From NCBI GenBank assembly GCA_003222195.1, contig QHVB01000038.1, positions 1-47,004 on the forward strand: a DNA stretch of 47,004 bases, read 5' to 3'. Position 1 is the first letter of the stretch; each line of letters begins with the position of its first letter. The notes under the pieces are model-generated. The model was not told the DNA's origin and made no database searches. It saw only the letters and a list, made by a program, of their open reading frames with translations. The translations under genes and the position numbers were made by a program. Below are positions 2,136-46,867 of this stretch, one piece after another. This DNA comes from Gemmatimonadota bacterium (GTDB lineage: Bacteria; Gemmatimonadota; Gemmatimonadetes; Gemmatimonadales; GWC2-71-9).

Positions 2136-2153
2136 CGCAATCCCTCGCGTCGG

Positions 2154-10549: not shown

Positions 10550-10566
10550 GGGTCGATCTCCTCGGG

Positions 10567-27709: not shown

Positions 27710-27783
27710 GCGCCCATAGCTCAACTGGATAGAGCGCTTGACTACGGATCAAGAGGCTGGGAGTTCGAGTCTTCCTGGGCGCA
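27710..27783 (+). tRNA. tRNA-Arg(ACG)
   Basis: A 74-base cloverleaf: acceptor GCGCCCA/TGGGCGC, anticodon stem CTTGA/TCAAG with loop CTACGGA (anticodon ACG, read as ICG), discriminator A. It starts five bases after tRNA-Val. Its 3' half is overlapped on the other strand by the last codons of the DUF5107 gene. Confidence 0.95.
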
Positions 27784-29512
27784 TGGAATCATCCTCAAAC
27801 TCGCGGTACGCACCAAACCGCGCCAATCGATCTTCGCCGAGCTGAGACGGCACCGGCACGCACGGTTCGTGCAGTTTCTGGCAGAGCTCATTCCACAACA
27901 TCGTTCGTACGTAACGCTGGTGGATTTTCTGGAACGGGACGGATAGCAGAAGTTCTTTCGCCCTCTGCAATTCTCCTTTGTCGATCAGCAGCTGCACGCG
28001 TCGCTCGACGACCCGCTCGTCCTCGATTGGGTCCGCTTCATCCAGCCATCGCTCGCGTTCGGGGATCGTTTCGGCTCCCGCGCGGCGCAGCACGTCGTCG
28101 CGCTCCGCAACGATCTGCGGATGCGACTGCAACGTCGCTTCGCGAATCGAGCGGAAGGCCCGCCTGGCGCCCTCGACATCACCGTCGAGTCTGAGCAGCC
28201 TGGCGAAGAGCGCCTGAGCCACGCCCAGATTGCTCGCGGCAAGGACGCGCATCGCGTCCTCTTTTTGGCCCCGTCCTGCGAGCCAGGCACCATAATGGAA
28301 TCTCCACCGGTCGACCGTGGCGTTGGGCGCACTCCCAATCGCCCACTCAAAGGCCGCACCGAGACCTTCCATACCCGAAGGCGCCCACCGGCACTCATCT
28401 GCTTGAGGCGGCTCGCGTAATCCGCCCTTGGTCTTGTGTGCGCTCGCGAGATCCTTCCACACCCGGACTTCATCCTCACGGGCCCAATCGAAGAGCGGAA
28501 CCTCGCTGCTCGGTCTGAGCTGGATGTCGGGAACCGTTAGGGAGGGGATGTCGCGGGCTTCATCGGCCGGAATCCAGAACTCGACGTGCCATCGTGTCTC
28601 GTGGGGCTGGAGCATCAACTTCGTCGCCTGATCCTTGAGCGGCCCACCCTGGATCTCCACATACGCTCGCGTCGCCCACGCGCGGTCCTCCCCGACGCCA
28701 TAGCTCCACAACTTCATTCCGGGTGCCAGCGAGGCATCGGCAACGTGATAGAGTCCGGACCCCAGGGAGGGTGTAAAGGCACCAAATGCGTTTACGTCCT
28801 TTGTCTTCCAGAAAAAGCCCGTCATCTCCTCAATATCGGATTCGCACCTCGGACCGGAACGCCGCCAGTCGATGACGCGCAGCGAGGACGAATGGCTCAA
28901 CACCTCGCCGTCAGGAAAACAAAACTCCGTGTCCGGCGCCGACGGCAACGCGGCATTGGACCACGACATCCAGGGGTAGGCCGATGGTCCAGGATTGTGA
29001 AACACGGCGCGCTGTGTGAGAAAATCGTCACCGGGGCCGAGGGAGTATTCGACCGACCACTGCATGCCAAAGTGCAGCTCCCGCTCCCCGCAGGTCACAT
29101 AGACGCGTGATGTCGTACGATCGATCCGGGAGAGTACGGGCTCGTTCTGCGTGGGAGAATGAGAAATCGGAAAGCTGACCGCGATCCCGCCGGCGACAAA
29201 AGCGAATCGCGGTAATATCCGCACCGGCTTGATGACGTCCGGCGCGTACAGCACCTCTTTGCCTGAGCCCTTATGAATGAGGGATGTGACCCTACCGCCG
29301 AGATCAGGGCAGATGACTACTCGGAGTCGATCATTCTCCAACGCGATGAACCGGTACTGCTTCCGTACCGGTCGCGGCGAGGTTTCTACGTAGCTGACGT
29401 AGGGATAGACACCATCGGGATCGAATGCCGTCGGGACCGGACCAGCCGGCGTGAGTTTATGCGTGAGGACGTCACCCTGAAACTCAGTACAGATTACGGC
29501 GTTATCGCCCAA
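27749..29512 (-). CDS. DUF5107 (sugar-mutarotase-like) protein with C-terminal helical repeats
   Basis: A 587-residue protein without a signal peptide. The N-terminal half is a DUF5107 domain of the galactose-mutarotase/aldose-epimerase fold: YRFIALENDRLRVVICPDLGGRV, then VIKPVRILPRF and VAGGIAVSFPISHSP. The C-terminal half (about 400-560) is helical and TPR-like. The only usable start is a TTG at 29512 that overlaps the preceding gene by 11 bases. The last residues (GRLELPAS) are antisense translation of tRNA-Arg. Family members usually accompany carbohydrate-use genes; this one closes the sugar locus. Exact activity unknown. Confidence 0.85.
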   Translation of the reverse strand: MGDNAVICTEFQGDVLTHKLTPAGPVPTAFDPDGVYPYVSYVETSPRPVRKQYRFIALENDRLRVVICPDLGGRVTSLIHKGSGKEVLYAPDVIKPVRILPRFAFVAGGIAVSFPISHSPTQNEPVLSRIDRTTSRVYVTCGERELHFGMQWSVEYSLGPGDDFLTQRAVFHNPGPSAYPWMSWSNAALPSAPDTEFCFPDGEVLSHSSSLRVIDWRRSGPRCESDIEEMTGFFWKTKDVNAFGAFTPSLGSGLYHVADASLAPGMKLWSYGVGEDRAWATRAYVEIQGGPLKDQATKLMLQPHETRWHVEFWIPADEARDIPSLTVPDIQLRPSSEVPLFDWAREDEVRVWKDLASAHKTKGGLREPPQADECRWAPSGMEGLGAAFEWAIGSAPNATVDRWRFHYGAWLAGRGQKEDAMRVLAASNLGVAQALFARLLRLDGDVEGARRAFRSIREATLQSHPQIVAERDDVLRRAGAETIPERERWLDEADPIEDERVVERRVQLLIDKGELQRAKELLLSVPFQKIHQRYVRTMLWNELCQKLHEPCVPVPSQLGEDRLARFGAYREFEDDSMRPGRLELPAS

Positions 29513-31319
29513 GTCGGTCGCTCAACGCCTCCAGCATGCGCAGGCCTTTGTGGACGGCTTCCGTGATCCTCGACTGATCATAATTCCGTTTGCTGTAATC
29601 CGGATCGCCGACAAAGGTACGCAACAGAGCGTCCAGATCTCGCAGCTGGCGTCCCGACGCCCGAGCCTTCAGGATCTTGATCTTCTCATAGTCCACGATC
29701 CCTTCGCGCAGCTTCTCAAAGCGCACGCTGCTGCCCGCGCCCGGATAGACGAGAAACTCGTCTCCCGCGGGCCACAACGCGTGGCGGGCGTCACGCACCG
29801 GATCGGCCGGCCAGGCATCGTAGGCCCAGCGTAAGAAACCATCATATCCGTACGCCGCCGCATACCAACCGATGTACCGGCCTTCAATCGGCGGCGAAAA
29901 CACGAAGGTGTTGGGCTTTTGCGGTGTGCAGCACACGTAGTAGGTGGTTGTGGACCCTCGCGCGGAACGCGCCCTAAGCTCCTGCTGGCTCGGCTCACTG
30001 GTGATGATGGGAGAGTAATCGTCGAGCAGCGAGTCCAACTCCGTATGCCAGTTGCCGGCGTAGGTGATCTTCCATTTGGGAGAATGCGCCCTGATCACGC
30101 GGATCGCGGCGAGGGTGAGCGGCATTTCATTTTCGTTGATGCCGAGATAGGTGCGATCGAACCAGCCGCGCTGCTCCAGGTGGGCCTTGAGATCGTCGAG
30201 AAACACGCGCCACACCGCCGCGAATGTCGCGGAGTCGGGCGCCCATGTCTCGGAGACGTAGTTTCCAGAGCGCCCGTCGAGGTAGCGGAAGCGGTTCCCC
30301 CAGGGCAGCGGCGTATAGATCGTGATCGCTTTCGTCACGCCGACGGCGGTGGCCAGCTCAACGTACTGATCGAAGATGTTGTAATCGAATTTCCAAGTCC
30401 CATCAGCCCGCTTGGTCCATTCGATCATTGCCCCTTCGATCATGTAGGAATTGTCCGACCAGGGGGAATGAACGGCGTAGGTCGTGATGTACTTCCCGCC
30501 GGCATCCGCGTACAACTTGAGATGCCGCCGCAATAGTGCTTTGTGTTCTTCCGACCAGGGTTCGACGTGATAGTACCAGGCCACTACCCAGGGATTCTGC
30601 CATAAGTCCAATCTGAACTTCCAATCACCAGGAGGCGGCAAGGTTTGGTCTTGGACCGTGATTGCTACCCGCAGTGTCGCACGGCCTTTTTCAGAACTGA
30701 CGTCCACTGTTCCCCGGTACACGCCGGGTGACGTGCCCGCGGGAATGTCCAGCGACAGCCAGATCGGCCTGACGCTGTGCGCTGGCAGATCGAACCGTTG
30801 GAACGGCTCCAGCCGGTCCGGCATGAGATAGGGCGGGTTCGAATCCGTCGCGCCACAGCTGACCTCGTTAGCGCCGTAGGGGTAGTTCGAGACGACATAA
30901 CGGACCAGATAGACCTGCGCGTTGCGGCTCGCGAGCGTGGCGCCGTTCGCGTTGACGAGATCGCTTACGGCGACGCGTATCTGGTTCACGGTATCCGGTG
31001 ACCAAACCACCAGCTCCGCATTCAACCGTTCGCCTTTCCAGCCGGTGGCTTCCCACATCTGGGATTGCTGCGGCAGGTCCGGCACCTCGCTGCGGAAGTA
31101 TGCCTGGTCGGTGGAAGCGAACGAGACGTTGAGCGCCTTCGGTTGGAGCGCCCACCTTTGTGGATTGCTCGGCGCGTCGAACGTGTATTCCGGTTGAAAG
31201 TGGAACGGCGGAACACGGACTTTGGCAGGATCAAGGCGTGCGCGCTGGATTCCGTCCTGGCCCTGCACCTGGGCGGTGACCAAACACGAGAGGCAACAGG
31301 CCGTCAGGATGCGGCGCAT
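29502..31319 (-). CDS. GH123-like / DUF4091 putative glycosidase
   Basis: A 605-residue exported protein from an ATG sharing one base with the susD stop (TGATG). The signal peptide ends near QVQGQ (about residue 21). A beta-sandwich domain (about 45-225) precedes a catalytic-type TIM barrel (about 235-520) of the DUF4091/GH123 kind. GH123 enzymes remove terminal beta-N-acetylgalactosamine by substrate-assisted catalysis using an adjacent Asp-Glu pair. The matching spot here appears to be GINENEMP (Asn395-Glu396), with Asn where Asp is expected, so activity on an N-acetylated sugar is unproven. It probably acts in the periplasm on glycan brought in by SusCD. Confidence 0.78.
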   Translation of the reverse strand: MRRILTACCLSCLVTAQVQGQDGIQRARLDPAKVRVPPFHFQPEYTFDAPSNPQRWALQPKALNVSFASTDQAYFRSEVPDLPQQSQMWEATGWKGERLNAELVVWSPDTVNQIRVAVSDLVNANGATLASRNAQVYLVRYVVSNYPYGANEVSCGATDSNPPYLMPDRLEPFQRFDLPAHSVRPIWLSLDIPAGTSPGVYRGTVDVSSEKGRATLRVAITVQDQTLPPPGDWKFRLDLWQNPWVVAWYYHVEPWSEEHKALLRRHLKLYADAGGKYITTYAVHSPWSDNSYMIEGAMIEWTKRADGTWKFDYNIFDQYVELATAVGVTKAITIYTPLPWGNRFRYLDGRSGNYVSETWAPDSATFAAVWRVFLDDLKAHLEQRGWFDRTYLGINENEMPLTLAAIRVIRAHSPKWKITYAGNWHTELDSLLDDYSPIITSEPSQQELRARSARGSTTTYYVCCTPQKPNTFVFSPPIEGRYIGWYAAAYGYDGFLRWAYDAWPADPVRDARHALWPAGDEFLVYPGAGSSVRFEKLREGIVDYEKIKILKARASGRQLRDLDALLRTFVGDPDYSKRNYDQSRITEAVHKGLRMLEALSDRLGR

Positions 31320-32971
31320 CACCAGCCCGGGTTCTGAGTGAGCGTGCCGTGCGACAATTGAATCTGCTGCAACGGAATCGGATCGAGATAATGCTTCGGG
31401 ACGACGAATTGGCGTGAGGCCGCCGCCTCCGCGACTATGAAGCCGTTGGCATCGACCTGGATATCCGAACCAATCTGCAAGCCGGGATAGCGGGTTTGAT
31501 ATTCCGTGCCGACGAATTTGACGCCCCTGAGGGCCTGCGGCATCTCGGTTTCCGCCGTCTTCCAGCGCCGCAGGTCGTCACGCCGGTATCCCTCGAAGGC
31601 CAATTCCACGGTCCGTTCTCTCCGGATCTCCGTCAACATGTCCAACCCGTTGGCGGATACAAAGCCGTTGGTCAACGACGGCATGCCCGCCCGGGCACGC
31701 AGCAGATTGATCGTCCGGTTCAGGTCGGCGTCAGAGATCACACCGTCGCGCTCAAAGAGGGCCTCGGCGAGAATCAACAACACCTCGCCGTAGCGAAATT
31801 CCTTGAAGTCATACTCGCCGGCAAACTGCGTCGCCTCGACCGTTTCGTCCAAGAATTTGCGCAGCATGTAGCCGGTGCGGGTCGCGTTACTGCCGGAGAA
31901 ACCCGGAAAAACCGGCTGGAACCCGCTCTCCTGGAACACGTCGCTGCCCGGGACGACAAACGTCATCGCCATTCTGGGGTCGCGGTTCTGGAATTCACTC
32001 TTTAGCGAATCGTATCCCTTGAACAGCGGCGAGCTGGTGATGGGCAAGCCGTCCGTGGCCAGATACATGTCCGCCAGCTTCTTCGTGGGGATCATGTAAT
32101 TGAACCACAGCTCCCGAGTCCAATTGTGCGTGGCGCGGCCGGCGTAATAGCGCCGCGCCAAAATCACCTCCGGGCTGTCATCCCCTTGCAGGATGAACAA
32201 GTACTTGTAGCTCTGCGCGCCCTGGCCGGCATACAGTTGATACTCACCCGATGCGACGAGTTGGTCCGCGGCAGTGATCGCGGCCGTGAGCATCGCGGTG
32301 GGGCTCCCTTCCGCGTGGTACTTGAGCCACGTGGCCTGGTACAGCGCCGCCCGGGCCTTCAGCGCGAGTGCCGCGCCTTGGGTCACCCGGCCCATCTCGT
32401 CGGCGCCGAGCTGACTCTGCTTGAGGAGCTTCGGCACGGCGTTGTCCAAGTCAGCGAGGATGAAATCGATGATTTGTTGTTGGGTGGATCGCGCCGTGTA
32501 GACCTCTGGCGAGGTCACGTCGAGCACTTTGGTGATCAGCGGCACGCCGCCGTAGGTCTTCACCAGGTTCCAGTAGTGATACGCCCGGAAGAACAGCGCT
32601 TCACCGACCCAGCGATCGATCTGCGTTCCCAATCCGGATTCCGCGGCTTTCGTGAGCAAATAGTTGGTGGCGCGGATGCCTGCATAGGACTTATCCCACA
32701 AGTCGGAATTGGCAGCCGGCAGATACGACCCATTACTCACGGACGACATTTGCGTGCTACCGCTGCCGGTCGCAATATCCGAACTGATTTCGGTCCAGTT
32801 ATCGGCGCCTTGCAACCCGTAATAGAAATCATTGGCAGCGAGTCTGAACTGGTCTGGAGTCTTCCAGAACGAGGCGTCGGAGACCTGATCCTTCGGACCG
32901 AGAGTCAGGTCCTTGCAGCCCAGCGCCAGCATGAGGAGGGCGCCGGTATATGTGACAGTGAGCCGGTTCAT
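31319..32971 (-). CDS. SusD/RagB-family lipoprotein of the sugar locus
   Basis: A 550-residue SusD-like lipoprotein. The lipobox is at Cys19 (LALGC), followed by the DQVSDASFWKTPDQFRLAANDFYYGL opening that is classical for SusD. The RYGEVLLILAEALFE helix and the WKTAETEMPQALRGVKF end region are also typical. It differs markedly from the two SusDs in the left part of the window and is closer to the standard Bacteroidetes form. It follows susC by 14 bases and is coupled to the glycosidase-like gene, so it should capture the glycan at the cell surface. Confidence 0.93.
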   Translation of the reverse strand: MNRLTVTYTGALLMLALGCKDLTLGPKDQVSDASFWKTPDQFRLAANDFYYGLQGADNWTEISSDIATGSGSTQMSSVSNGSYLPAANSDLWDKSYAGIRATNYLLTKAAESGLGTQIDRWVGEALFFRAYHYWNLVKTYGGVPLITKVLDVTSPEVYTARSTQQQIIDFILADLDNAVPKLLKQSQLGADEMGRVTQGAALALKARAALYQATWLKYHAEGSPTAMLTAAITAADQLVASGEYQLYAGQGAQSYKYLFILQGDDSPEVILARRYYAGRATHNWTRELWFNYMIPTKKLADMYLATDGLPITSSPLFKGYDSLKSEFQNRDPRMAMTFVVPGSDVFQESGFQPVFPGFSGSNATRTGYMLRKFLDETVEATQFAGEYDFKEFRYGEVLLILAEALFERDGVISDADLNRTINLLRARAGMPSLTNGFVSANGLDMLTEIRRERTVELAFEGYRRDDLRRWKTAETEMPQALRGVKFVGTEYQTRYPGLQIGSDIQVDANGFIVAEAAASRQFVVPKHYLDPIPLQQIQLSHGTLTQNPGW

Positions 32972-32985
32972 GAATGGGCGCCCCG

Positions 32986-35900
32986 TTAGAAGGTGATATC
33001 CATGCCGAAGGAGTACAGCCGCTGGAATGGATAATTGAAGCCAAGCGCGGGCGATTCAGGATCCCAGCCGCCCTTCACGTTGTGCTTTTCCCAGAGGTCG
33101 AACCCGCTAAAATAGACTCTCGCTCGCGTCATTCTTGCCCGCGCGATCAGACGCTCGGGGAGGGAAAACCCGATCTGCAGGTTTTTCAGCCGCAGATAGG
33201 CCGCATTAGTCGCCTGTAACGTGGACGGCTGATAGTTCCAAAACCGGATGTTGCCATGCGTGAGTCGGGGATAGGGAGCGTTGGGACGATCTTCATTCCA
33301 TGTCTGGTTGTAGTAAAACAGCGGCGGTTGTCTCCACCAGTCGCTCCACGGCATCCGGTACTCGCCGTCCCTAAACAGTGTCCGTTTCCCGACACCCTGC
33401 ATGAAGATGCTCACATCGAGGCGCCGCCACTTCGCGTCGAGATTGAGGCCATACGTGTACCGCGGTGACGTGTTCCCCAGATAGACGACGTCCCCGTCTT
33501 TACCCGGGGTATCGCCGTACAAGCTGATTTTCCCGTCGCCGTTCACGTCCTTGTATCGCGCATCGCCGATCCCGATGTCGCTGGGGACGCCCGGGATTTT
33601 TTTGTAGGCATCGAGCTCCGCCTGGGTGCGGATCAGCCCATCGAACACGTAGCCGAAGTACGAACTGACCGGATAGCCTTCCCGGATGTAGTTCCAGCCC
33701 AAGTCGTAGGTGTCCTGCCCTCCGTAGTTCACGACCTTGTTCTTGGCATCACTGAGACTCGCTCGCGCAGAAACTTGAACGGCGCGAACGTGACCTTTCC
33801 ATCCCAATGATGTTTCGAAGCCCCAGGTCTTGACCCGGCCCGCATTCGAGTATGGCGGCACGGCACCCAGGATGCTGGGATAGGCAACGGGAACGAGCAT
33901 GTCGCGATTGTTCTTGATGAAATAGTCAAACGTGAAGTCGAGCTTCGAAGACAACAGGGTCGCGTCCACGCCCACGTTGCTCGTGGCGATCGTCTCCCAC
34001 GTCCTGTTCGTGGAAACCATGCCGGAGAGGTATGCCGATTGATCCTGTCTCCCCGCGCCGAAGGGATAATACGGATCATACGGCCACTGCCTGCCGATGG
34101 TGATCAGTTGGAGGTAGTCATAGAGACCGATGCCTTCCTGATTCCCGTTTTCTCCGTACGAGGCGCGTAGTTTCAGATTATCGAACAGGGCGAGGTGACG
34201 GCGCGCAAATGGCTCTTCGGAGACCCGCCAGGCGACCGACACACCGGGGAAGAACCCCCACCGTTTGTCGGGGGAGAAACGGGAGCTCCCATCGTAGCGG
34301 AGCGTGGCATCGAGGAGGTACTTGTTGCTGAAGCCATAACTCAAGCGGGAGAAGAGCGATCGGATCGCCCACTGCTCACCGCCGCCGCCGGTCGCCATGT
34401 TGCCGGTCGAGCCGAGATTGAGTCCCCACACGTCCTGGCTCGTAAAGTCGGATCTGCCGGCCTGGAACCAATCCAGGTCGTGGTCTTCGTGCGACACGCC
34501 CCCCATGAGCTCGACAGCGTGCCGCTCACCGAACGTCCTGCTGAACTCGGCATACCCGACGTAGTTTCTGTTGAGTGTGGTCCCATTGTACCGGGTTACC
34601 CAGTTCTGATCGGGATTCGCGATGGAATAGTAGGCGATGCTGCTGTCATCCCACCGGTATAACGGGGAAGACTTGCCGATGTCGGTGTTGTCCTCCGTCC
34701 GGTAATTGATGCCGGACTGGAGATTCAGCTTCAGTCCATCCAACGGCTCGACGATCAACTTGAAATTGGTATTGACACCGCGCGTGGCAAACGTGGCCGT
34801 CGCGGCTTCCTTGGCCTGCGCGACGGCGTTCCCCCACCCCCCTTGAGCAAAAAAGTGTTGACCACTCCGTGTATAAATGGGATGGTTGGGCATGCCGAAG
34901 ATCGCTTCCACGACGAGCCACGGACAGCTACACCACGACGCGTGGCTGAGGCCGCCGATGTCCGACCTGTCCTGATTGTCGAGCGACAGTTTTGACTCCA
35001 ACCGGATCCGCCTGGAAAAATCGTAGTCGTAATTCAGTCTGAGGTTATAGCGCCTGTTATTGTCGTTGGCATAGCGAATCACGCCATTCAGGTCGGAATA
35101 GCCCGCCGAGACGTAGTAGCTGGAATTCTGGCCTCCTCCGGAAACCGTCAGCGTGTGCTTCTGCTCAAATCCGTCTTCGAACACGGCTTTCCGCCAATCG
35201 GTGGACGTAAAAAAGAGCATCCACCCCGAACTGCCGTAGATCGGGTGCGGGATGGGATTGGGATCGCCCGCTTTTACCCGTGCCAGCAGGTCGGGCGTAT
35301 ACAACGGCGCCGCGCCGTTGTGGATATTCGCCTCATTATCCATGATCGCCATCTGATAGTTATTAGGAGTATCCATCATCCCAGTCAGTTTGGTGATCGC
35401 GGCGTTGGTGCTGTACGTAAACGTTGGCGCACCGCGCGCGCCTTTCTTGGTCGTTACAAGCAGGACTCCATCAGCCGCACGGGCTCCATAGATAGACGCG
35501 GCGGCATCCTTCAACACCGAGATGGTTTCGATGTCGGCGGGGTTTAACAGATCGAGGTTTCCCGGGATGCCATCGATCAACACGAGCGGAGAATTCCCTC
35601 CGCTGGAGGCGTACAACTGCTGCGGGTCTTTGGGAATGGATGAAACGCCCCGCAGATTGAGACTAAAGTCTTCGACTCCGGGTTGTCCCCCCGAGCGCTC
35701 CACCACCACTCCTGGAATGACGCCCTGAATGGCCGTGAGCGTGTTCGTGATCGGGCGAGATTCCAGCGCTTCCGAACCAATGGAAGCAACGGCTCCGGTG
35801 ACATTCTCCCTCGTCTTTTCACCGTAGCCCACGGCCACGACCGCCTCCAGCTCGATGGCCTGCGCCTTGAGCTGAAGGTTCACGATCGCCTGCTGCCCCT

Positions 35901-36537: not shown

Positions 36538-36570
36538 AGGCCTACTCCCCGAAAGCAGACGGCATGAGGG

Positions 36571-37581: not shown

Positions 37582-37670
37582 ACCCTAATAACGGGCCAGT
37601 ACTGTCGCACCCCCAAGCCAAAAGTTGCCAAGACATCGGCATTCCAGAAGGTGGGTCTGACTCCGCTCCC

Positions 37671-38147
37671 GTGGCAATCGTCGAATTCACCGATCTGGAA
37701 TGTCCGGCCTGCCGCGGCTTTCAGCGTACCGTTAGCGATATCCTCCACGAACGGCCAAGTGATGTTCGCGTGGTCTATGTTCCGCATCCTCTTTCGTACC
37801 ATCGGTTCGCACTTGGTGCCGCACAAGGTGCGGAATGTGCTGCTGACGTCGACGCGCTCGGGAAGTGGCTCGATGTTGTCTTTTCAAAACAAGACTCCCT
37901 TGGTCTCAAGAGTTGGGGTGCTTACGCAGCGGAAGCCGGTATTCGCGACACAGCGCGCATCGCCGAATGTGCCAAACGCCGGGTCGCTGGTCCTCGCATA
38001 GATTCGGGCTTGGCGCTCGGAGCGAGGTTTGGTCTCGGCGGCACACCGGGAGTGTTGGTCAATGGATGGTTGTTTCCGGCACCTCCCACGCGAAGCCAAC
38101 TTGACGCTGCCATTGATGATTTGTTAGCGGGGCGCCAGCCCCGCTAG
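37671..38147 (+). pseudogene. DsbA-like thioredoxin-fold protein, 5'-truncated
   Basis: A 158-residue open frame with the DsbA-family redox motif CPAC (Cys11/Cys14) in FTDLECPACRGF and the cis-proline loop GGTPGVLVNGWLF. Homology starts before the first usable codon: the frame is open upstream and reads GGSDSAPVAIVEF, matching GRADAPVTVYEM of the complete relative at 5890-6492, but no signal peptide or standard start exists before the divergent fecR gene is reached. Such proteins work in the periplasm, so this copy looks like a truncated remnant. An internal GTG at 37671 could still give a cytoplasmic fragment. It is the only plus-strand gene inside the sugar locus. Confidence 0.6.
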
Positions 38148-38178
38148 CCCACCATTGCACCGCGGCACGATGACGTCC

Positions 38179-39957
38179 TCAGCCTCCACCAGCCTCCTGC
38201 TTCCCCCACATCCTCGGCACCAGGCGCAACAAGCCGAAGCCACTAGCCAGGAAGACCGCCGCCCACAGGATCGCCTGTGGCGTCCGCCCGTACAGCGCGC
38301 TGCCGGTGCCGAACAACGCGGCATAGATGAACGCACAGCCGAACACCCAGCCGAGCAGGGAATTGGGCAGGCTGTCCGGCGAGGAGGGCAGACCGGCCTC
38401 CTGGCGGATCGACTCCCAACCAGGTCCGGCCGGACGCACCAGCTTGTAGAAGGAGAGCAGCGTCGTTCGATCCGTCGGTGACGTGAGGTAGGCGACCGCC
38501 ACCCACACGACGGTCGTGATGGCGACCGTAAAGATGAGCGAGATGTGCCCCGGCAGCGCGTGGCCTGCCCTGGCGGCGATCGCGAATCCGAGCGCCAAGA
38601 GGAACGAGCTGACCATCGCGGCCACCTCGCACCACGCGTTGACGCGCCACCAGAACCAGCGCAGCAGGTAGATCAACCCGGTCCCGGCCCCGACTGAGAG
38701 GATCAGATCGAAGGCCTGCTTCGAGCTGCTCAGCGCATAGGTCGCGAGCGCGGCGACGATCATGAGCAGGGCCGTCGTGAGACGGCCCACGAGCACGTAA
38801 TGCTTTTCGCTCGCTCCTTTATTCAGGAAGCGGCGATAGAAATCGTGCACTAGGTAGGAGGTGCCCCAGTTGAGATGGGTTTCGATGGTCGAGCGGTAGG
38901 AGGCGAGCATACCGGCGATCATGAACCCCAGAAACGGCGCTGGCAGGAAGCGGTACATCGCCGGATACGCCATGTCGTTCCCGATAAGACTGGGATCGAT
39001 GTAGGGATAGGCCCGAGCGATGTCGGACAGATGCGGGTAAATCACGGTGGACGCAAGGGCAACGAGGATCCACGGCCATGGCCGCAACGCGTAGTGCATC
39101 GCGTTGAAGAGCAGCGTGCCCACCACCGCGTCCTTCTCCGTGCGAGAGGCGAGCATGCGCTGGGCGATGTAGCTCCCGCCCCCCGGCTCCGCGCCGGGAT
39201 ACCAGACAGACCACCACTGAATGGTCAGCGGAATGATCAACACCGACAGCGTAAGCCCCCAGTCGCCGAAATCGGGGATCAGCCGCAACCGCTTGGGGTC
39301 GATTTGGGCGATAAGGCCGGAGAGGCCGCCGACCTGCGGCTGGCTCAGCGCAAAATACGCGAGGGCGAAGGTCGCGGTCATGGTGATGCCGAATTGAATC
39401 GAGTCGGTGACCAGCACACCCCACAGCCCGGAGACCGACGCAAAGAACACCGTCACCACGCCCATGAGCAGCAGCGTTTTCTCGAGGGGCCAGCCGAGCA
39501 CGATGTTGGCGATCTTCGCGGCGGCGAGATTCACCGCCGCCATGATCACGCAGTTGAAGAACAGGCCGAGGTACACAGCGCGAAAACCACGCACGAAGCT
39601 CGCCGCCTTGCCCGAGTAGCGCAGCTCGTAGAACTCGAGATCGGTCAGCACGTTCGAACGACGCCAGAGGCGGGCGTAGAAGAACACCGTCAGCATCCCC
39701 GTCAGGAGGAACGACCACCACAGCCAGTTCTCCGCTACCCCGCTCTCGCGCACCATGTTGGTGACGAGGTTCGGGGTGTCGGTCGAAAACGTGGTGGCCA
39801 CCATCGAGACGCCGACCAGCCACCAGGGCGCGGCTCGGCCGGACGCGAAGAACTCCGTGGTGCTCTTGCTCGCGCGCCGGAAAAAGAAGAGAGCGGGCAG
39901 AAACGACACCGCGATCGAGATGATCACGACGGTCCAGTCAGCGATCGTCACGTGCAT
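38179..39957 (-). CDS. Sodium:solute symporter (SSS family)
   Basis: A 592-residue inner-membrane transporter with about 13-14 hydrophobic segments from TIADWTVVIISIAVSFLPALFF onward. Family blocks include EFFASGRAAPWWLVGVSMVATTFS near the N-terminus, where sodium and substrate bind, and FLGFMIAGMLASYRSTIETHLNWGTSYLVHDFYRRF. The ATG at 39957 is chosen because the 38 upstream codons of the open frame are hydrophilic and out of family. In sugar loci such symporters import monosaccharides released in the periplasm; here N-acetylhexosamine is the natural guess from the neighbours. Ends 31 bases from the convergent DsbA-like fragment. Confidence 0.92.
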   Translation of the reverse strand: MHVTIADWTVVIISIAVSFLPALFFFRRASKSTTEFFASGRAAPWWLVGVSMVATTFSTDTPNLVTNMVRESGVAENWLWWSFLLTGMLTVFFYARLWRRSNVLTDLEFYELRYSGKAASFVRGFRAVYLGLFFNCVIMAAVNLAAAKIANIVLGWPLEKTLLLMGVVTVFFASVSGLWGVLVTDSIQFGITMTATFALAYFALSQPQVGGLSGLIAQIDPKRLRLIPDFGDWGLTLSVLIIPLTIQWWSVWYPGAEPGGGSYIAQRMLASRTEKDAVVGTLLFNAMHYALRPWPWILVALASTVIYPHLSDIARAYPYIDPSLIGNDMAYPAMYRFLPAPFLGFMIAGMLASYRSTIETHLNWGTSYLVHDFYRRFLNKGASEKHYVLVGRLTTALLMIVAALATYALSSSKQAFDLILSVGAGTGLIYLLRWFWWRVNAWCEVAAMVSSFLLALGFAIAARAGHALPGHISLIFTVAITTVVWVAVAYLTSPTDRTTLLSFYKLVRPAGPGWESIRQEAGLPSSPDSLPNSLLGWVFGCAFIYAALFGTGSALYGRTPQAILWAAVFLASGFGLLRLVPRMWGKQEAGGG

Positions 39958-39997
39958 GGGTGCTCGTTGTCCGGAGAGGGAAACGGGTTGCGCAGTC

Positions 39998-40900
39998 TCA
40001 TGCGAGTCGCTCGAATCCGTCTTTGAGGTTCGCGGGGTACTGCCCGGCGTCCACGAGGCGCTGTAGCTCATTTCGTACGGTCATGTCGTCCGCGGAAAAC
40101 GTCATTCCAAACCAGCGCGCGCGCGTTCGCAGCACGCGAACACGCGTGTCGTTCGCCGCCAGCTGCGCACCCACTGCCTCACTCAACAGAAACTCGGCGC
40201 GAGGGTCCGCGCTCCGTGCCTCGAGGAAGGCTGCGAACTGCCGCTCGAGCATAGGCAACACGGCCGGCGTAAAGCCCCAGAGATTCATGGAAACGAGCTC
40301 GTCTCCATGGAGCGAAACCGCCTGCCCAGCCGTGGCGTGACCGGTGAACGCGACGCCGCGCGAAACGATGTCACCCACCTCGGTGAGCCGCGATAAGTAC
40401 CCACGTGCGTCCAGCTCCACAATCGCACGCGAAACGCCGCCATGCGCGGACATCGTCTCGCGCAGCGTGTAGCCGACCAGGGCATGTTCAGCGCCGCCCA
40501 GGAGGTGTTCGAACAACAATCGATATGCGTCCGCGCCGTAGAAGTCGTCCGCATTCATAACGGCAAACGGCCCCCGAGTCCCCCAAGCCGCGGCGAGGAC
40601 GGCGTGCCCAGTCCCCCACGGCTTCGCGCGGCGCGGCGCAGACGGCTCGACGGCCTGGTGCGCAAACACCACCTCGATACCGGTGCCGATGACGTCCGCC
40701 ACGTGGCGACGGAACAGCTCCTCGACTTCCTGGCGAATCACGAACATCACTCTGCGAAAGCCTGCACGCGCCGCGTCGTACACGCCGTAGTCGAGGAGCA
40801 CCTCGCCATTGGGGCCTACCGGGGCAAGCTGTTTGAGCCCGCCGTAGCGCGAACCGAGGCCCGCCGCGAGGACGACGAGTGTGAGGCGAGGTGTGGTTAT
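39998..40900 (-). CDS. Sugar nucleotidyltransferase (NTP_transferase family), non-standard start
   Basis: About 300 residues. The N-terminal nucleotide-binding motif is LAAGLGSRYGGLKQLAPVG, close to the LxxGxGxRxxxxxK pattern of sugar-1-phosphate nucleotidyltransferases. FAVMNADDFYGADAY carries the metal-binding aspartates, and GTGHAVLAA lines the pocket. Relatives sit beside NahK-type kinases and are thought to make UDP-sugars. There is no ATG, GTG, TTG or CTG between the sigma-factor reading frame and the motif; the best start is an ATA at 40900 overlapping the sigma-factor stop as ATAA, the same geometry as the ATGA/GTGA overlaps elsewhere in the window. Start is therefore uncertain, function fairly firm. 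Confidence 0.82.
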   Translation of the reverse strand: MTTPRLTLVVLAAGLGSRYGGLKQLAPVGPNGEVLLDYGVYDAARAGFRRVMFVIRQEVEELFRRHVADVIGTGIEVVFAHQAVEPSAPRRAKPWGTGHAVLAAAWGTRGPFAVMNADDFYGADAYRLLFEHLLGGAEHALVGYTLRETMSAHGGVSRAIVELDARGYLSRLTEVGDIVSRGVAFTGHATAGQAVSLHGDELVSMNLWGFTPAVLPMLERQFAAFLEARSADPRAEFLLSEAVGAQLAANDTRVRVLRTRARWFGMTFSADDMTVRNELQRLVDAGQYPANLKDGFERLA

Positions 40901-41499
40901 TGGGCTTGGCGGATTCGGTCGCGCAGGAACTTCAGGCCCCGGGCGAGTTGCGTCTCGACAGTCTTCTCGCTGATGGCCAGTCGGTGCGCGATCTCGGCGT
41001 AACTCAGACCATCGATCAACCGCAGTCTGCACACCGCGGATCGTTTGGGCGGGAGATCGGCGAGCGCGCGCTCCACTGCCGCGGCGAGCTCCGCCGCTTC
41101 CAGGTCGGGCTGGATGTCCGCTACCGTCACGAGTTGAGCGGTCCCGACCCTCCGCCGGCGCGCCACGGCGGCACGTTGGAGCCGGTCGAGTGCGGCGTTG
41201 CGGACGGCGAGATAGAGGTAGTTCCGCACGGCGCCGGCGGGCACCCAGTCGGCCCGGCCCCGCCAGATCCGGAAGAACACTTCCTGGACGGCGTCTTCGG
41301 CGTCCTGCTGCGAACGCAAGTAGCGAAATGCGAACGCGTAGAGGCGCTCCCAGTACCTGCGATAGAGCGCCTCGAACGCGTCCATATGCCCGGCGCGGAT
41401 GCGATCCGCCCATGCACGCTCGACGGCGTTGGTGCTGACGTCGTCGGAGCCGGTCTCGGGAAGCGGCTCGCTGGCGAAATGGGTCTTGGGTAACGACAT
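40897..41499 (-). CDS. ECF-type RNA polymerase sigma factor (FecI-like)
   Basis: A 200-residue ECF sigma factor. Region 2 spans about 38-80 (AFEALYRRYWERLYAFAFRYL, DAEDAVQEVFFRIW), region 4 about 145-198 (LPPKRSAVCRLRLIDGLSYAEIAHRLAISEKTVETQLARGL). No region 3 or 1, as expected. It likely partners with the FecR at 36571-37581 and the STN-bearing SusC, switching on the uptake genes when the glycan is present. Its stop codon overlaps the proposed ATA start of the nucleotidyltransferase. The ATG has only a weak ribosome site. Confidence 0.93.
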   Translation of the reverse strand: MSLPKTHFASEPLPETGSDDVSTNAVERAWADRIRAGHMDAFEALYRRYWERLYAFAFRYLRSQQDAEDAVQEVFFRIWRGRADWVPAGAVRNYLYLAVRNAALDRLQRAAVARRRRVGTAQLVTVADIQPDLEAAELAAAVERALADLPPKRSAVCRLRLIDGLSYAEIAHRLAISEKTVETQLARGLKFLRDRIRQAQ

Positions 41500-41564
41500 C
41501 GATAGTTACCGGGTGCGTCCGATAGCAATAGCGTGCGCGCAATTTCAACGCGCCGCAAGGTCCC

Positions 41565-42644
41565 TTAGATACCGGTGATGCGGCGACGCAACGGGCGCTC
41601 CTGCTCGAGCAGGGCAGCGAGCAGGGCCAATTGCGTACGACAACGGTCGAGATTATGCCCCGGACGGGCGATGCGATAGTACCGATCGCCTTCGAGATGG
41701 TCGATCAGGAAGCGGACCGCTTGCTCGAACACGATCACCTGCGCGGCTGGCACGAGCAGGTCCCGCTCGGGCGGCGTCAGGAGCTCTCGCATCGCGGCGA
41801 CGTAGCCGCGCGCGATGCTCTCGAACAACTCGGGCTCGAGGCGGACGCGGCTCGTGTCGCGTTCATCTTCGGCCGCGCGAGTCGCCATCGACCGCACGAG
41901 ATCGCCGAAGTCATAGAGCGCTAGCCCCGGCATGACGGTATCCAGATCTACCACGCAGAGTGGTTCGCCGGACGCCGCGTCGAACAGCACGTTGGCGAGC
42001 TTGGCGTCGTTATGCACCACTCGTTCCGGTACCGCACCAGCAGCCGCGGCCTGCACTAAAACCGCCGCGAGATCGCGATGGGCGCGAATCTCGGCGACTT
42101 CAGCACGCGCACCCGCCGCGCGGCCCGCCGCGTCGCGCTGGACGGCGCACTCGAACGATTCCAGCCGGCGCGGCGTGTCGTGAAAGTGCGGGATCGTCTC
42201 GTGCAGCCGCGGGCCCGGGAGATCCCCGAGCGCCCGCTGGAAGGCACCGAACGCGCGCGCGGCGTGCTCGGCGTCCGCAGCGGTGGCGATCGGCCGCGTC
42301 ACCGCGCCTTCGATGAAATCGTACAGCCGCCACACGTCGCCGTGCTCGTCCTGCAGGCACGCGTCTCCGCCTCGCGTCGGCACGAGTCGCAGTGGTCCCC
42401 CGACGTGCTGCGTCACGCGTTTCACGTTCTCCATCAACTCGGCGAGACTGGGAAAGACGTGGGCATTGAGCCGCTGGAGGAAGAACCGGATCGGCCGATC
42501 ACGCGGCGCCCGACCCGACACGATGTACGACGCGTTGATGTGACCGGCAGGTCCTGAGAACGGTTCGACCGTGGCGACGGCGGCACCGGTGGCGAACCGC
42601 GCAGCGACAGCGTGGAGGGACGCCGCTGCGGCGTCGAGACTCAT
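41565..42644 (-). CDS. nahK: N-acetylhexosamine 1-kinase (NahK-like)
   Basis: Predicted to phosphorylate GlcNAc or GalNAc at C1 using ATP, in the cytoplasm. The 359 residues from the ATG at 42644 equal the length of Bifidobacterium NahK as I recall it, with matching blocks along the whole protein: GHINASYIVSG, FFLQRLNAHVFPSLAELMENV, ETIPHFHDTPRRLESF, the catalytic HNDAKLANVLFD (Asp213) and the metal-binding VVDLDTVMPGLALYDFGD (Asp233). The aminoglycoside-kinase-like fold is shared with homoserine and choline kinases, but the ETIPHFHDTP block is specific. It starts eight bases after the TPR-barrel gene and lies beside a nucleotidyltransferase, the expected partner. Confidence 0.85.
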   Translation of the reverse strand: MSLDAAAASLHAVAARFATGAAVATVEPFSGPAGHINASYIVSGRAPRDRPIRFFLQRLNAHVFPSLAELMENVKRVTQHVGGPLRLVPTRGGDACLQDEHGDVWRLYDFIEGAVTRPIATAADAEHAARAFGAFQRALGDLPGPRLHETIPHFHDTPRRLESFECAVQRDAAGRAAGARAEVAEIRAHRDLAAVLVQAAAAGAVPERVVHNDAKLANVLFDAASGEPLCVVDLDTVMPGLALYDFGDLVRSMATRAAEDERDTSRVRLEPELFESIARGYVAAMRELLTPPERDLLVPAAQVIVFEQAVRFLIDHLEGDRYYRIARPGHNLDRCRTQLALLAALLEQERPLRRRITGI

Positions 42645-42651
42645 ACGCCCA

Positions 42652-44646
42652 TTAGCGCAATGCCCATTGTAGCGAGGTGGCCGCCGAGACGTAGCGCCAA
42701 CTCCCTGCGCTCGTCGCTGCCTCGTTCCCGGCGGCGTAGTCCTCGAGGCCAAGGTCGATTTTCAAATCGCATCCCGGTGCGAGCGGCAGCACGATCGATG
42801 AGTACAGGCTCAGGGCCCGCTGCCACGGCCCCAAACCAGCGCTGAACTTAGCGACGCGTTGCACTCCCGCGCCAACATCAAATGAGAAGAGAGCTCCATT
42901 GGGCGTCTCGAACTCGAGGTACGACCCCGCTTGCACGACCTGGGCGAGCCGCGGCGCGAAATAGCCCACCGTGTCCGGATGGTCGTAGCGGATCTGGTTG
43001 AACCGCGCCGACAGCTCCACGCTGGGCGCCGCGGCGAACGCGACGACGCCGGCGAGCGCCATCCTGTGATTCGTCTCGGTAGGATCGCTCAGCGACGCCG
43101 CGCGCGCGATGCCACGAAGCTTCACCACGCGGGCCACGGGCAACTCGAAGGTGCCGCGAAACTCGGTGCGCGCCGCGCGATTCGTCACGAGGCGCGGGGA
43201 AGCGTCCAGCACATTGCGCTGCAGGCGCAGGTCAAGAGCCGGTCCCAGCGGGAGCGGGCGCCAGCGCGCCCGCAACTGCCCCGTGGGCGTGCTGGTCGCG
43301 CGCGCGCCAGCGATCGCGTCCAGTGCCGTCACCCCCCCGGACGCCTCAACTTGCAGCACTGCCCGCGGTCGCCACGTCGCGCGCAGCCCGACGTCCGTGA
43401 GGGCAGTGGTCGTCACGCCATCGGCGACCCGCTCGTGACCCGCCGTCACTCCGAGCCGGAAGGGCGCTGACACAGTGAGTTCGGCGGCGCCGCCCAGCCG
43501 CAGTGTCGCGTTGCCGTCCGAGTCGTGGCTGCCGCTCACTTGCGGTCCGAGCGCGGGAGCCGCTGCGGCCTCAGCCAGCGCGAGCCGCCGGTCCGTCGTC
43601 TGATCGGGGACGATCGCTTGGGCACGTGCGAAGGCACGTGCCGCATCCGCCGGGCGGCCGGCGCGGGTCTGCTCACGGCCCAACTCGCGCCATGCCTCGA
43701 CATCCGTGCCGTGCGCGTCGAGCCACTGTTCGTACGCCGCAATGGCGGCGTCGGTCCGCCGCGCACGCGCGAGGACGCGCGCCCTTCCGACGACTGCGTC
43801 GCGTTCGCCGGGCGCAAGGCGCACGGCCTGGTCGTAGCAGCGCAGTGCGTCACCGTACCGCCCCGGCCCCCAGCGCGCCAAGACGGCACCGACCGCTATG
43901 TACCCCCACGGGTCTTCCGGTTCGAGCGCCACATAGCGCTGAAACAATCGCAGCGCCTCGGCACGGTCCGCCGAGAGCTGGGCGAGGCGGTAAATGGCGT
44001 GGGTATTCTCGGGGTCGACCGCGAGCACGGCCGCGTAGTGCCGTGAGGCGATGCTCGTGCTGCCCGCGGTGAACGCGGAGTCCGCTCGCGCGAGGGCTAC
44101 CGCGACGCGAGAGCGAACGGGGGGCCGATGTTGTGCCCGCGCGTTCCCGGGATGGCTCGCCGCTGCTGCTTCGAAGAGCAGCAGCGCGATGAGCGTCCGG
44201 GCCCGTCGCCGTTCACCGCCGGCGGCGGCCCGCGGCTCGATAGGCGCGGGCACGTCGCGCTCGCGCGGGGCGCGGGTGGACGCGCTGCCGCCCGAACCTG
44301 CCCGGCCGTGGATCCAGAACCGCAGCAGCTCCACCGCCGCCAGCACCGCGGCAAGCGTTCCGATCGAGAGGACGAGCGCGGCGATCCGGAGCACGTTGCT
44401 CGGAACCGAACCGAGGGCGAGTCGCGCCGGGTGTTGCGTGGCGTGGAGGGCAGCGCCGAGCAGGCGTCCCGTCAGGAACATTCCCACGATCATGCCGCCC
44501 GCGATCGCAAGTTGGCCGGCCACTATCCGCCAGCCGCCCGAGGCAAGGCCGCGTATCCGTCGGTACGCCTCCGACAGCGGCATCGCGAGCGCGCTCAGCA
44601 GGTAGAACATCCCGCCGATCCCGGTGCCCGGGAGCCCCACGGTCAT
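42652..44646 (-). CDS. Inner-membrane/TPR/outer-membrane-barrel fusion protein (polysaccharide export candidate)
   Basis: A 664-residue protein from the ATG at 44646. Segments in order: hydrophobic helices at about 11-24, 40-67 and 86-112, a charged Pro/Arg linker, a second signal-peptide-like stretch at about 147-172 (TLIALLLFEAAAASHPGNARAQ), TPR repeats (about 185-345, each with the A-x-x-x-Y or ALRCYDQAVRLAPGE pattern), and from about 365 alternating strands of an outer-membrane barrel like YaiO or the PgaA/BcsC export porins. A protein carrying both inner-membrane helices and an outer-membrane barrel is unusual; no standard internal start separates the parts. It is two bases from the glycosyltransferase stop, implying a joint role in making and exporting a polysaccharide. 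Confidence 0.75.
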   Translation of the reverse strand: MTVGLPGTGIGGMFYLLSALAMPLSEAYRRIRGLASGGWRIVAGQLAIAGGMIVGMFLTGRLLGAALHATQHPARLALGSVPSNVLRIAALVLSIGTLAAVLAAVELLRFWIHGRAGSGGSASTRAPRERDVPAPIEPRAAAGGERRRARTLIALLLFEAAAASHPGNARAQHRPPVRSRVAVALARADSAFTAGSTSIASRHYAAVLAVDPENTHAIYRLAQLSADRAEALRLFQRYVALEPEDPWGYIAVGAVLARWGPGRYGDALRCYDQAVRLAPGERDAVVGRARVLARARRTDAAIAAYEQWLDAHGTDVEAWRELGREQTRAGRPADAARAFARAQAIVPDQTTDRRLALAEAAAAPALGPQVSGSHDSDGNATLRLGGAAELTVSAPFRLGVTAGHERVADGVTTTALTDVGLRATWRPRAVLQVEASGGVTALDAIAGARATSTPTGQLRARWRPLPLGPALDLRLQRNVLDASPRLVTNRAARTEFRGTFELPVARVVKLRGIARAASLSDPTETNHRMALAGVVAFAAAPSVELSARFNQIRYDHPDTVGYFAPRLAQVVQAGSYLEFETPNGALFSFDVGAGVQRVAKFSAGLGPWQRALSLYSSIVLPLAPGCDLKIDLGLEDYAAGNEAATSAGSWRYVSAATSLQWALR

Positions 44647-44648
44647 CG

Positions 44649-45725
44649 TCAGTGTCCCTTCTCGTACACGTGCCAGGAGCGGCCGAGCACAAACTCCGCA
44701 CACGCCGCTTGCAGAAAGAAGAGCGCGTTGACGGTGCGCAGTACGAAGAACGCGGGGAGGCTTGCGAGCGCGCGCGGCACCTCCCGCCGCCGCGCCGCGC
44801 CCGCGAGTACCGGAACGAGCACGGCCGGCGCGTCGATCACGTAACCCAGCAAGATCCACGGACTCGCAAGCAGGACGGCCAGGATCGGCAGCAGCATCAG
44901 GTACACCACCGCCGCGATGGTCGCATCCCAGAGCGCTACTGCCACTGCCGAGCGCAGGTAGGGTACGCCGAGGAGACCGCGCCAGTGCAGCCGCACGTTC
45001 TGGAGGAAGCCGTGCGACCAGCGTCGCAGTTGCTTGCGCATGAGGGTGAAGGTGTGGGGCTCGATCGGGTAGCAGACTGCCTCAGGCACGAAGCGCACCT
45101 CGTTGCCTGTCTGGTAGAGGCTCCACGTCAGGTCCATGTCCTCGGCGAGGGTACGGTTGGACCAGCCGCCGTGATCTCGCAGGATCGCCGTGCGGTACAT
45201 CGAGAAGCATCCCGAAGAAATGAGTGGCTTGCCGTAATACTCCTGCACTCGCTTGTAGAATGTGAACGCGAACAAGTACTCGATGTAGCGCCCCCGCTCC
45301 CACACGCTGCGCACGCGCTGGGGCAATACGAATCCGCACGCCGCTGCGATGCCCGGGCGCTCGAACGCCAGCAACAGCCGCTCGAGGGCGTCAGGCGCGA
45401 GTACGGTGTCGGCGTCGATCGCGACCGTGAGGGCCGTGCGGACGTGGCGCAGCGCGAACGTCTGGGCGCCTGCCTTGGAGCCCGTGTTCCGCGGGGGGCG
45501 AACGACGGTGACCCCCAACGCACGCGCCACGTCGCCCGTGCCATCGGTGGAGCAATCGTCCACGACGATGATTTCGGAGGGGCGCTCGGTCTGGACCTGG
45601 AGGCTCCGGATCGTGTCGGCCACGCTCGCCGCCTCGTTGTAAGCGGGGACGATGACCGTCACGTCGCGCCCGGCAAAGGCCGGGCGAAGGGGAGGGCGGG
45701 GGCTGGCCGCAAGCTTGCGTCGCAT
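44649..45725 (-). CDS. Processive family-2 glycosyltransferase (PgaC/hyaluronan-synthase-like)
   Basis: A 358-residue membrane glycosyltransferase. The GT-A domain shows VTVIVPAYNEAASV (22-35), VDDCS (55-59), the DAD metal site (104-106), the catalytic-base region EDMDL (195-199) and QLRRW (232-236), the D,D,D,QxxRW set of processive polymerases of beta-linked sugars. About three membrane helices follow (residues 250-345). It lacks the N-terminal helices of PgaC. Between an epimerase gene and an export-barrel gene, it probably polymerises a UDP-hexose or UDP-N-acetylhexosamine into an extracellular polysaccharide. Sugar identity not determined. Confidence 0.88.
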   Translation of the reverse strand: MRRKLAASPRPPLRPAFAGRDVTVIVPAYNEAASVADTIRSLQVQTERPSEIIVVDDCSTDGTGDVARALGVTVVRPPRNTGSKAGAQTFALRHVRTALTVAIDADTVLAPDALERLLLAFERPGIAAACGFVLPQRVRSVWERGRYIEYLFAFTFYKRVQEYYGKPLISSGCFSMYRTAILRDHGGWSNRTLAEDMDLTWSLYQTGNEVRFVPEAVCYPIEPHTFTLMRKQLRRWSHGFLQNVRLHWRGLLGVPYLRSAVAVALWDATIAAVVYLMLLPILAVLLASPWILLGYVIDAPAVLVPVLAGAARRREVPRALASLPAFFVLRTVNALFFLQAACAEFVLGRSWHVYEKGH

Positions 45726-45802
45726 TGCGTAAAGAGGCGGAGGGGTGCTGCGACGTAACGCGGTGGGGTCTCAGCATGTAACAAGGTTTTTGGTTCACCG
45801 CG

Positions 45803-46726
45803 CTACGGCTTGCTCCACTCGACCACGCGCCGCACGCCATCTCGCAGGGCCACGGTCGGTTTCCAGTCCCACGTTCGTCGCGCCACAGCCGGATCGAGGC
45901 AGCTGTGTGCGATGTCGCCCGGTCGGTCCGCTGCGTAGGTGGGTTCCTGTGTGTATCGCGTCGCGGCTGCGACTTCGCGAAACAGCTCCAGGTCCGAGAC
46001 CTCGCGTCCCCATCCCAGATTCGCGATGACACCGGCGGGTCCCGACGCGGCCCGGATGATCGCCGCCACGACGTCGCCCACATAGATGTAGTCGCGCGTC
46101 TTGCTGCCGTCGCCGAAGATCGTCACCGGCTTACCCGCGAGCATCCGATCCGTGAAGATCGCGACGACACCGCCTTCGCCGTCGGACCGCTGCCGTGGTC
46201 CGTACACATTGGCGAATCGCAGCGCCGCGTATTCGATCAGCCCCCGCGCCTGGTATGCATGCAGGTAGTGCTCGAACGCGAGCTTGCTCGAACCGTAATC
46301 GGAAATCGGTCGCGTCGGGTGGGTCTCGGGAACTGGCAGGCGGTCGGGGGTGCCGTAGACGGCCGCCGACGACGCGTACACGACACGCCGCGCCCCGGCG
46401 GCGTGCGCCGCGCGCAGGACGTTCAGGCCGCCGAGCACATTGACTCGGGCATCGTAGTCCGGCTCCCGAATGGACCTGCCCACGTCCGTCTGCGCCGCGG
46501 CGTGGAACACGACGTCGGGTTTGAACGAGGCGACGACGTCGCGAAGCGACGGCCAGTCGCAGATGTCGATGCGTTGGAAACGCGCCCCGGAAGGAACATT
46601 GCTCGCCGAGCCGGTCGAGAGATCGTCGAGGACGCAGACGGTGTGGCCATCCGATACGAGGCGGTCGACGAGATGGGAACCGATGAAGCCTGCCCCACCC
46701 GTCACGAGGGCGCGCAACGCCGCCAA
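45803..46726 (-). CDS. NAD-dependent sugar-nucleotide epimerase/dehydratase (GalE-like, extended SDR)
   Basis: A 307-residue extended short-chain dehydrogenase. The cofactor motif TGGAGFIGSHL is at about 9-19, the DLSTG acidic end of strand 2 follows, the catalytic Ser and Tyr-x-x-x-Lys are in YASSAAVYG and DYGSSK, and RFANVYGPRQ is the substrate-binding block of UDP-sugar 4-epimerases. It is slightly shorter than E. coli GalE (338). The start is TTG at 46726 after an AGGGG-type site; a second TTG three codons on is possible. Likely interconverts UDP-Glc/UDP-Gal or their N-acetyl forms for the glycosyltransferase downstream. Confidence 0.88.
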   Translation of the reverse strand: MAALRALVTGGAGFIGSHLVDRLVSDGHTVCVLDDLSTGSASNVPSGARFQRIDICDWPSLRDVVASFKPDVVFHAAAQTDVGRSIREPDYDARVNVLGGLNVLRAAHAAGARRVVYASSAAVYGTPDRLPVPETHPTRPISDYGSSKLAFEHYLHAYQARGLIEYAALRFANVYGPRQRSDGEGGVVAIFTDRMLAGKPVTIFGDGSKTRDYIYVGDVVAAIIRAASGPAGVIANLGWGREVSDLELFREVAAATRYTQEPTYAADRPGDIAHSCLDPAVARRTWDWKPTVALRDGVRRVVEWSKP

Positions 46727-46792
46727 GGGTTCGTCCCCTTTCCTTCGGTTTCCTCCGCTTCTACCTTCCTTAGCACCTTAAGCTAGTAGATG

Positions 46793-46867
46793 CGGGGCGT
46801 AGCGCAGTCCGGTTAGCGCGCCTGGTTCGGGACCAGGAGGTCGGTGGTTCAAATCCACTCGCCCCGA
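46793..46867 (+). tRNA. tRNA-Pro(CGG)
   Basis: A 75-base cloverleaf: acceptor CGGGGCG/CGCCCCG with the C1:G72 pair typical of proline tRNA, anticodon stem CCTGG/CCAGG with loop TTCGGGA (anticodon CGG), T-loop TTCAAAT, discriminator A. CCA is not encoded. Its 3' end is duplicated downstream. Confidence 0.94.

Follow-up and report, generated by a model that had tools for sequence, protein, structure and literature searches.

A SusCD-type PUL inserted at a tRNA array of a Gemmatimonadota bacterium, probably for GalNAc-containing glycans and with a predicted UDP-dependent branch

The window analysed here is an entire contig (C23; 47,004 bp) of a 3.5 Mb Gemmatimonadota genome in 95 contigs. Between two plus-strand tRNA genes it carries a run of minus-strand genes in the order epimerase, GT2 glycosyltransferase, TPR/barrel protein, NahK-type kinase, ECF sigma factor, sugar-1-phosphate nucleotidyltransferase (NTP), SSS symporter, a 0.6 kb gap, FecR, SusC, SusD, GH123 and DUF5107 protein (E-values or bit scores in brackets):

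27710..27783, plus strand, tRNA-Arg(acg) (ARAGORN), left boundary of the insert; adjoins tRNA-Pro(cgg) in five relatives
27749..29512, minus strand, DUF5107/TPR protein, BDI_1685-like (PF17128 1.8e-87, PF22256 9.4e-78; PDB 5CD6 1.6e-234)
29502..31322, minus strand, protein of the GH123 beta-N-acetylgalactosaminidase family (PF13320 2.2e-101, PF22680; PDB 5L7V 7.6e-130)
31319..32971, minus strand, SusD-like glycan-binding lipoprotein (PF07980 1.7e-45)
32986..36537, minus strand, SusC/RagA TonB-dependent transporter (TIGR04056, 776.6 bits, over the cut-off)
36571..37581, minus strand, FecR-type anti-sigma factor (PF04773, PF16344)
38179..39957, minus strand, SSS-family symporter (PF00474 2.4e-29); adjoins the NTP-NahK pair in relatives
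39998..40900, minus strand, NTP, 3PNN-like, with an apparent ATA start (PDB 3PNN 2.1e-63; PF00483 2.7e-7)
40897..41499, minus strand, ECF sigma factor (TIGR02985, 139 bits, over the cut-off)
41565..42644, minus strand, NahK-type N-acetylhexosamine 1-kinase (PDB 4OCU 5.1e-75; HND and DLDT motifs kept)
42652..44649, minus strand, protein with a membrane segment, TPR repeats and a predicted beta-barrel (TPR Pfams; AlphaFold2 model)
44649..45725, minus strand, GT2 glycosyltransferase, PgaC/IcaA-like but below the cut-off (PF00535 4.8e-32; TIGR03937, 119.9 bits versus 422.3)
45803..46726, minus strand, GalE-like short epimerase (PF01370 1.4e-66; PDB 7YS8, a UDP-glucose 4-epimerase, 1.8e-80)
46793..46868, plus strand, tRNA-Pro(cgg) (ARAGORN), right boundary of the insert

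Every gene named in a preliminary description of this DNA was found on the minus strand where it had been placed, by Pfam, NCBIfam or PDB matches. The ECF sigma factor, which that description had counted among the uptake genes, does belong to its family but lies between NahK and the NTP (40897-41499) rather than beside FecR. Three-frame translation of the interval between the SSS and FecR genes (37582..38178) gave no intact minus-strand gene. The organization is that of a SusCD-type PUL, with neighbouring SusC and SusD genes (TIGR04056 over its cut-off; PF07980) linked to a carbohydrate-active enzyme (GH123) and to regulators (ECF sigma, FecR). Homology of the GH123 protein to its family covers both domains (PF13320 and PF22680; PDB code 5L7V), and the catalytic Asp-Glu dyad is Asn-Glu in the window protein and in its two close relatives, L134 and L116.

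The run is a single insert of ∼19 kb between tRNA-Arg(acg) and tRNA-Pro(cgg) (27,784-46,792), a span equal to the locus delimited in the preliminary description. In five relatives (G255, G021, G110, G300 and G194) the two tRNA genes are only 5-103 bp apart, in the same array and with the same sigma gene alongside; in the window this sigma gene (26068-27048) is 86% identical to its counterpart in the L027 genome, a Gemmatimonadota MAG, and 63% identical to that of a second Gemmatimonadota MAG, the basis on which the genome is assigned to this phylum. The left junction is marked by the DUF5107 frame, since the homologous proteins of relatives (in L134, L136 and L170) finish with ...YREFE/A at the equivalent of ∼27795 and the window frame overruns this end, its last ∼13 residues being read-through of the antisense strand of tRNA-Arg. 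The right-hand junction, tRNA-Pro followed by the epimerase, is shared by the congener G137. No direct repeat of the tRNA-Arg 3′ end turned up when the right boundary was searched for one, and none of the insert's genes was recognisable as an integrase. The GC content is 0.60 in the PUL part and 0.70 in the GT2/TPR genes, but GC3 differs little (the SSS row of this comparison was computed out of frame), and the GC mosaic was therefore dropped as a sign of foreign origin.

In relatives, the same tRNA array holds other inserts between tRNA-Pro and tRNA-Arg(ccg) (L151:2017-4485 and L153:8379-9623), with one gene that is GH3-like and one that is serine-hydrolase-like as judged by eye. Two more SusC/SusD pairs lie to the left of the array in the window (651-5513 and 9119-13833). 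G300 contains a PUL fragment (L116) that is 99.8-100% identical to window positions 28673-32526, whereas its sigma/tRNA region is ∼93% identical and its tRNA site is empty; the fragment may reflect either recent transfer or misbinning.

The kinase matches NahK structures (PDB codes 4OCU, 4OCJ and 4WH1; E about 1e-75) over its full length, with the catalytic HND and DLDT motifs retained in the alignment to 4OCU. The only solved chain matched by the NTP is 3PNN. This gene has no ATG, GTG or TTG start nearby; its apparent ATA start at 40900 overlaps the stop of the sigma-factor gene (CAATAA), and the same apparent ATA start is seen in three species (window 40897-40900, L018:4226-4235 and L158:2256-2268). 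The epimerase adjoins NahK or the NTP in L018, L158, L078, L169, L171 and L172.

Homologous loci place most of these genes in one system. Two genomes of the same family, G110 and G232, carry a PUL with the order GH109-epimerase-NTP-SSS-FecR-SusC-SusD-GH123, with identities to the window of 76-77% (epimerase), 46-47% (NTP), 64-66% (FecR), 75-76% (SusC), 81% (SusD) and 70-84% (GH123). In G110 it continues with DUF5107 (68%) and ECF sigma (74%) genes, followed by a convergent galactokinase-family gene that exceeds the TIGR00131 cut-off. The G110 PUL is split over contigs C107 and C69, and that of G232 lies on C29 and C14, with its DUF5107/ECF end beyond the contig; the genomes compared are mostly draft assemblies, and contig ends cut several loci. 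The tRNA array of G110 is empty and its PUL is located elsewhere in the genome. In G194, GH123-DUF5107-ECF adjoin the same galactokinase-type kinase. The congeners G137 and G299 have the order epimerase-NahK-ECF-NTP, extended by SSS in G299, and the stop of the epimerase gene touches the probable start of NahK or overlaps with it, which assigns the epimerase to the sugar-activation branch. Because the PUL of G110 and G232 carries the epimerase, NTP and SSS genes, these belong to the uptake locus, and the epimerase is thus not part of a polysaccharide-synthesis half as had been suggested. The proposal that the NahK-type 1-kinase and the NTP connect with the uptake genes fared better: the genes appear to form one system, the likely product being a UDP-HexNAc. 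NahK evidently replaces the galactokinase-type kinase of the related PULs, to judge from these gene orders. It occurs together with GH123 in the window genome only, and GH109, present in the G110/G232 version, is absent from the window locus. Within this one pathway a swap of kinase family is seen at L134:8453-9694, L136:2757-3881 and L170:9614-10780, where a galactokinase-family gene stands in the place of NahK.

The GT2/TPR pair has a different distribution. The TPR protein probably starts at M71 (44649), where its gene overlaps the GT2 stop; the AlphaFold2 model of the protein shows TPR and beta strands, with the barrel at low confidence (mean pLDDT 60, four sequences). The two proteins resemble PgaC and PgaA of the Pga/Ica systems but fall far below both PgaABCD-type equivalog cut-offs (119.9 versus 422.3 bits for GT2 and 25.1 versus 366.65 bits for the TPR outer-membrane protein). 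The pair is found in G137, G075, G299, G298 and G012, on contigs without PUL genes, with GT2 identities of 75-86%, and NahK was not found in three of these (G075, G012 and G298). It is absent from the kinase operons of the congeners G137 and G299 (L018 and L158) and from the homologous PUL of G110 and G232, and neither gene occurs in any of 87 NTP- or NahK-anchored loci (E<1e-8). In the window the pair sits exactly between the epimerase and NahK, genes that meet directly in the congeners. The pair is independent of the PUL, and the simplest reading of these sequences is that it was inserted in the window's lineage and lies outside the core locus. Like gene content, gene order, conservation and the insertion at the tRNA genes, this independence is a direct observation. 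The case illustrates how the landing of an unrelated gene pair inside a mobile PUL, itself located at a tRNA array, can give the impression of a hybrid pathway.

We consider it likely that the locus is a SusCD-type PUL for GalNAc-containing glycans with a complete UDP-dependent branch; the substrate, the direction of the reactions and their cellular location are inferred. GH123 is a family of beta-N-acetylgalactosaminidases and GH109 one of alpha-N-acetylgalactosaminidases. A galacto-form sugar is favoured because the conserved 4-epimerase would be needed only for such a sugar and because these glycosidases belong to GalNAc-ase families. In the proposed scheme, FecR and the ECF sigma factor would sense the glycan, SusCD would import oligosaccharides, GH123 (with GH109 in relatives) would release GalNAc in the periplasm and the SSS symporter would carry it into the cytoplasm. 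NahK would then convert GalNAc to GalNAc-1-P, the NTP would form UDP-GalNAc and the 4-epimerase would yield UDP-GlcNAc, which would enter the common amino-sugar pool. From there it could be used for the cell wall or, via GlcNAc-1-P and GlcNAc-6-P, reach glycolysis through deaminases encoded elsewhere. Several observations count against this reading: NahK and GH123 were seen together in the window genome only, the catalytic Asp of GH123 is Asn in the window and its close relatives, no nagA above the cut-off was found, NahK of Bifidobacterium longum also accepts GlcNAc, and the substrate may instead be galactose, since the PUL of G110 is paired with a galactokinase-type enzyme.

The closest tested system is PUL BT4240-50 of Bacteroides thetaiotaomicron (PMC11992087). 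Both loci combine a NahK-type kinase with SusC/SusD, an ECF sigma/anti-sigma pair, an inner-membrane sugar transporter and a GalNAc-ase, so that a GalNAc kinase homologue, SusCD and an enzyme of a GalNAc-ase family stand in one locus in the window as well. GH109 is present in BT4240-50 and in the relatives' version of the PUL but missing from the window. In BT4240-50, by contrast, the transporter is of the MFS type, genes for GH2 and an M60 peptidase are present, neither an NTP nor an epimerase has been described, and the GT2/TPR pair is missing. BT4240 is a GalNAc 1-kinase that prefers this sugar to GlcNAc about 275-fold; the deletion mutant no longer grows on GalNAc, and its growth on chondroitin sulphate is cut by half (PMC11992087). 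A 1-kinase is therefore compatible with catabolism. The fate of GalNAc-1-P was left open by the B. thetaiotaomicron study (PMC11992087), and the present loci may offer a plausible complete answer in the form of an NTP and a 4-epimerase in one operon. PULs are widespread in Gemmatimonadota (PMC10469786). The lacto-N-biose/galacto-N-biose pathway of Bifidobacterium (NahK, GalT, GalE) likewise proceeds by 1-phosphorylation of a HexNAc and 4-epimerization of a UDP-sugar. It employs a GH112 phosphorylase, of which the annotated run has none, together with an enzyme of uridylyl exchange; the window, unlike it, has a predicted UTP-type nucleotidyltransferase and a SusCD system. The expectation that no described system shares this exact layout was borne out in the open-access literature, which yielded no account of the kinase-NTP-epimerase-SusCD combination or of a NahK-nucleotidyltransferase pair.

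Enzymes for the later steps were sought in the rest of the genome. The absence of nagA/nagB-type genes that had been reported holds within the run but not genome-wide, since two nagB-type (GlcN-6-P deaminase) genes lie outside the window: a NagB-PIG-L deacetylase fusion at L127:346-2238 (NF002557, 861 bits) and a NagB (TIGR00502, 331 bits). No nagA above the cut-off was found in the genome; the fusion is a possible stand-in for NagA, the deacetylation step then depending on its PIG-L part. A PF01182 match on C85 was rejected as nagB, being a 6-phosphogluconolactonase beside zwf.

Among other substrates, GlcNAc from chitin or peptidoglycan deserves mention, with the kinase and NTP acting mainly on GlcNAc and making UDP-GlcNAc directly. 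NahK of B. longum accepts both GalNAc and GlcNAc (PMC6264712) and a GH20 gene adjoins NahK in L042, but a 4-epimerase conserved in the operon would then be superfluous, the GH109 and GH123 enzymes are of GalNAc-ase families and BT4240 prefers GalNAc by the margin given above; we regard this as unlikely.

A second proposal, that of the preliminary description, routes freed N-acetylhexosamine into a UDP-sugar that the GT2 would polymerize, with export through the TPR barrel, instead of into glycolysis. It draws on the best NCBIfam model for the GT2 being the poly-GlcNAc synthase PgaC/IcaA (far below the cut-off), on the modelled TPR and beta strands of the partner, on the position of the pair within a same-strand run between the epimerase and NahK, and on UDP-GlcNAc as a plausible donor. 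The two halves are, however, never linked in any relative examined (G137 and G299 carry the kinase operon as well as the pair, but on different contigs); the pair is missing from the operons, PULs and 87 loci described above and is present in genomes without a detected NahK. Moreover, B. thetaiotaomicron requires the homologous kinase BT4240 to grow when GalNAc is the carbon source (PMC11992087), and GlcN-6-P deaminases are encoded outside the window. Such a route is distinctly unlikely, and we judge as similarly improbable a variant in which, in this species, the pair and the GalNAc locus share a transcript and UDP-GlcNAc from scavenged GalNAc is diverted to an exported polymer, an eating locus recently turned to coat-making.

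The NTP could alternatively be a GalY-type uridylyltransferase for Gal-1-P in a locus for galactose. Ravcheev and Thiele predicted galY (Amuc_0031), an NTP_transferase clustering with galE, as a replacement for GalT in galK+ galT- genomes (PMC5583593); the window NTP shares the family and the galE clustering, and galactokinase-family genes are neighbours in G110, G156, L027 and L028. The window genome nevertheless has a GalT-family gene (C18, 8.8e-43), leaving no GalT gap for the NTP to fill, and the kinase is NahK, of a HexNAc kinase family, beside glycosidases of GalNAc type; we hold a galactose locus to be very unlikely. Recycling of cell-wall sugars as by AmgK/MurU, which belong to the same broad families (APH kinase and nucleotidyltransferase), is scarcely credible, as the genes lie in a SusCD locus and the PDB matches at E<=0.001 are only NahK entries for the kinase and 3PNN for the NTP.

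The pairing of kinase and NTP on which the GalNAc reading builds extends well beyond this locus. In a phylum sample of 298 genomes NahK was found in eight and the NTP in 94; the NTP adjoins NahK in 8/8 other NahK-carrying genomes of the phylum (in G137 the NTP gene is truncated where its contig stops), and an SSS gene is close to NahK in every locus whose contig reaches far enough. Among 80 NTP-anchored loci from beyond the phylum sample, 18 contain NahK, usually adjacent, and seven have an adjacent SSS; the hosts of the NahK-bearing loci include Acidobacteria, Verrucomicrobia, Planctomycetes, Bacteroidetes, Firmicutes and a deltaproteobacterium. Neighbouring glycosidases (GH109 in L019-L021 and L026, GH20 beside NahK in L042, GH116 with a PIG-L deacetylase in L061) and the order epimerase-NTP-NahK in L078 point to a glycan-utilization context, and with the pairing recurring across many phyla one route could hold for a wide group. 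A Gfo/Idh neighbour in L044 gave no GH109 match and was not counted. In L023 (by similarity) and L024 (by Pfam) the NTP-NahK-SSS trio adjoins an M14 carboxypeptidase, which hints at a possible use of glycopeptides.
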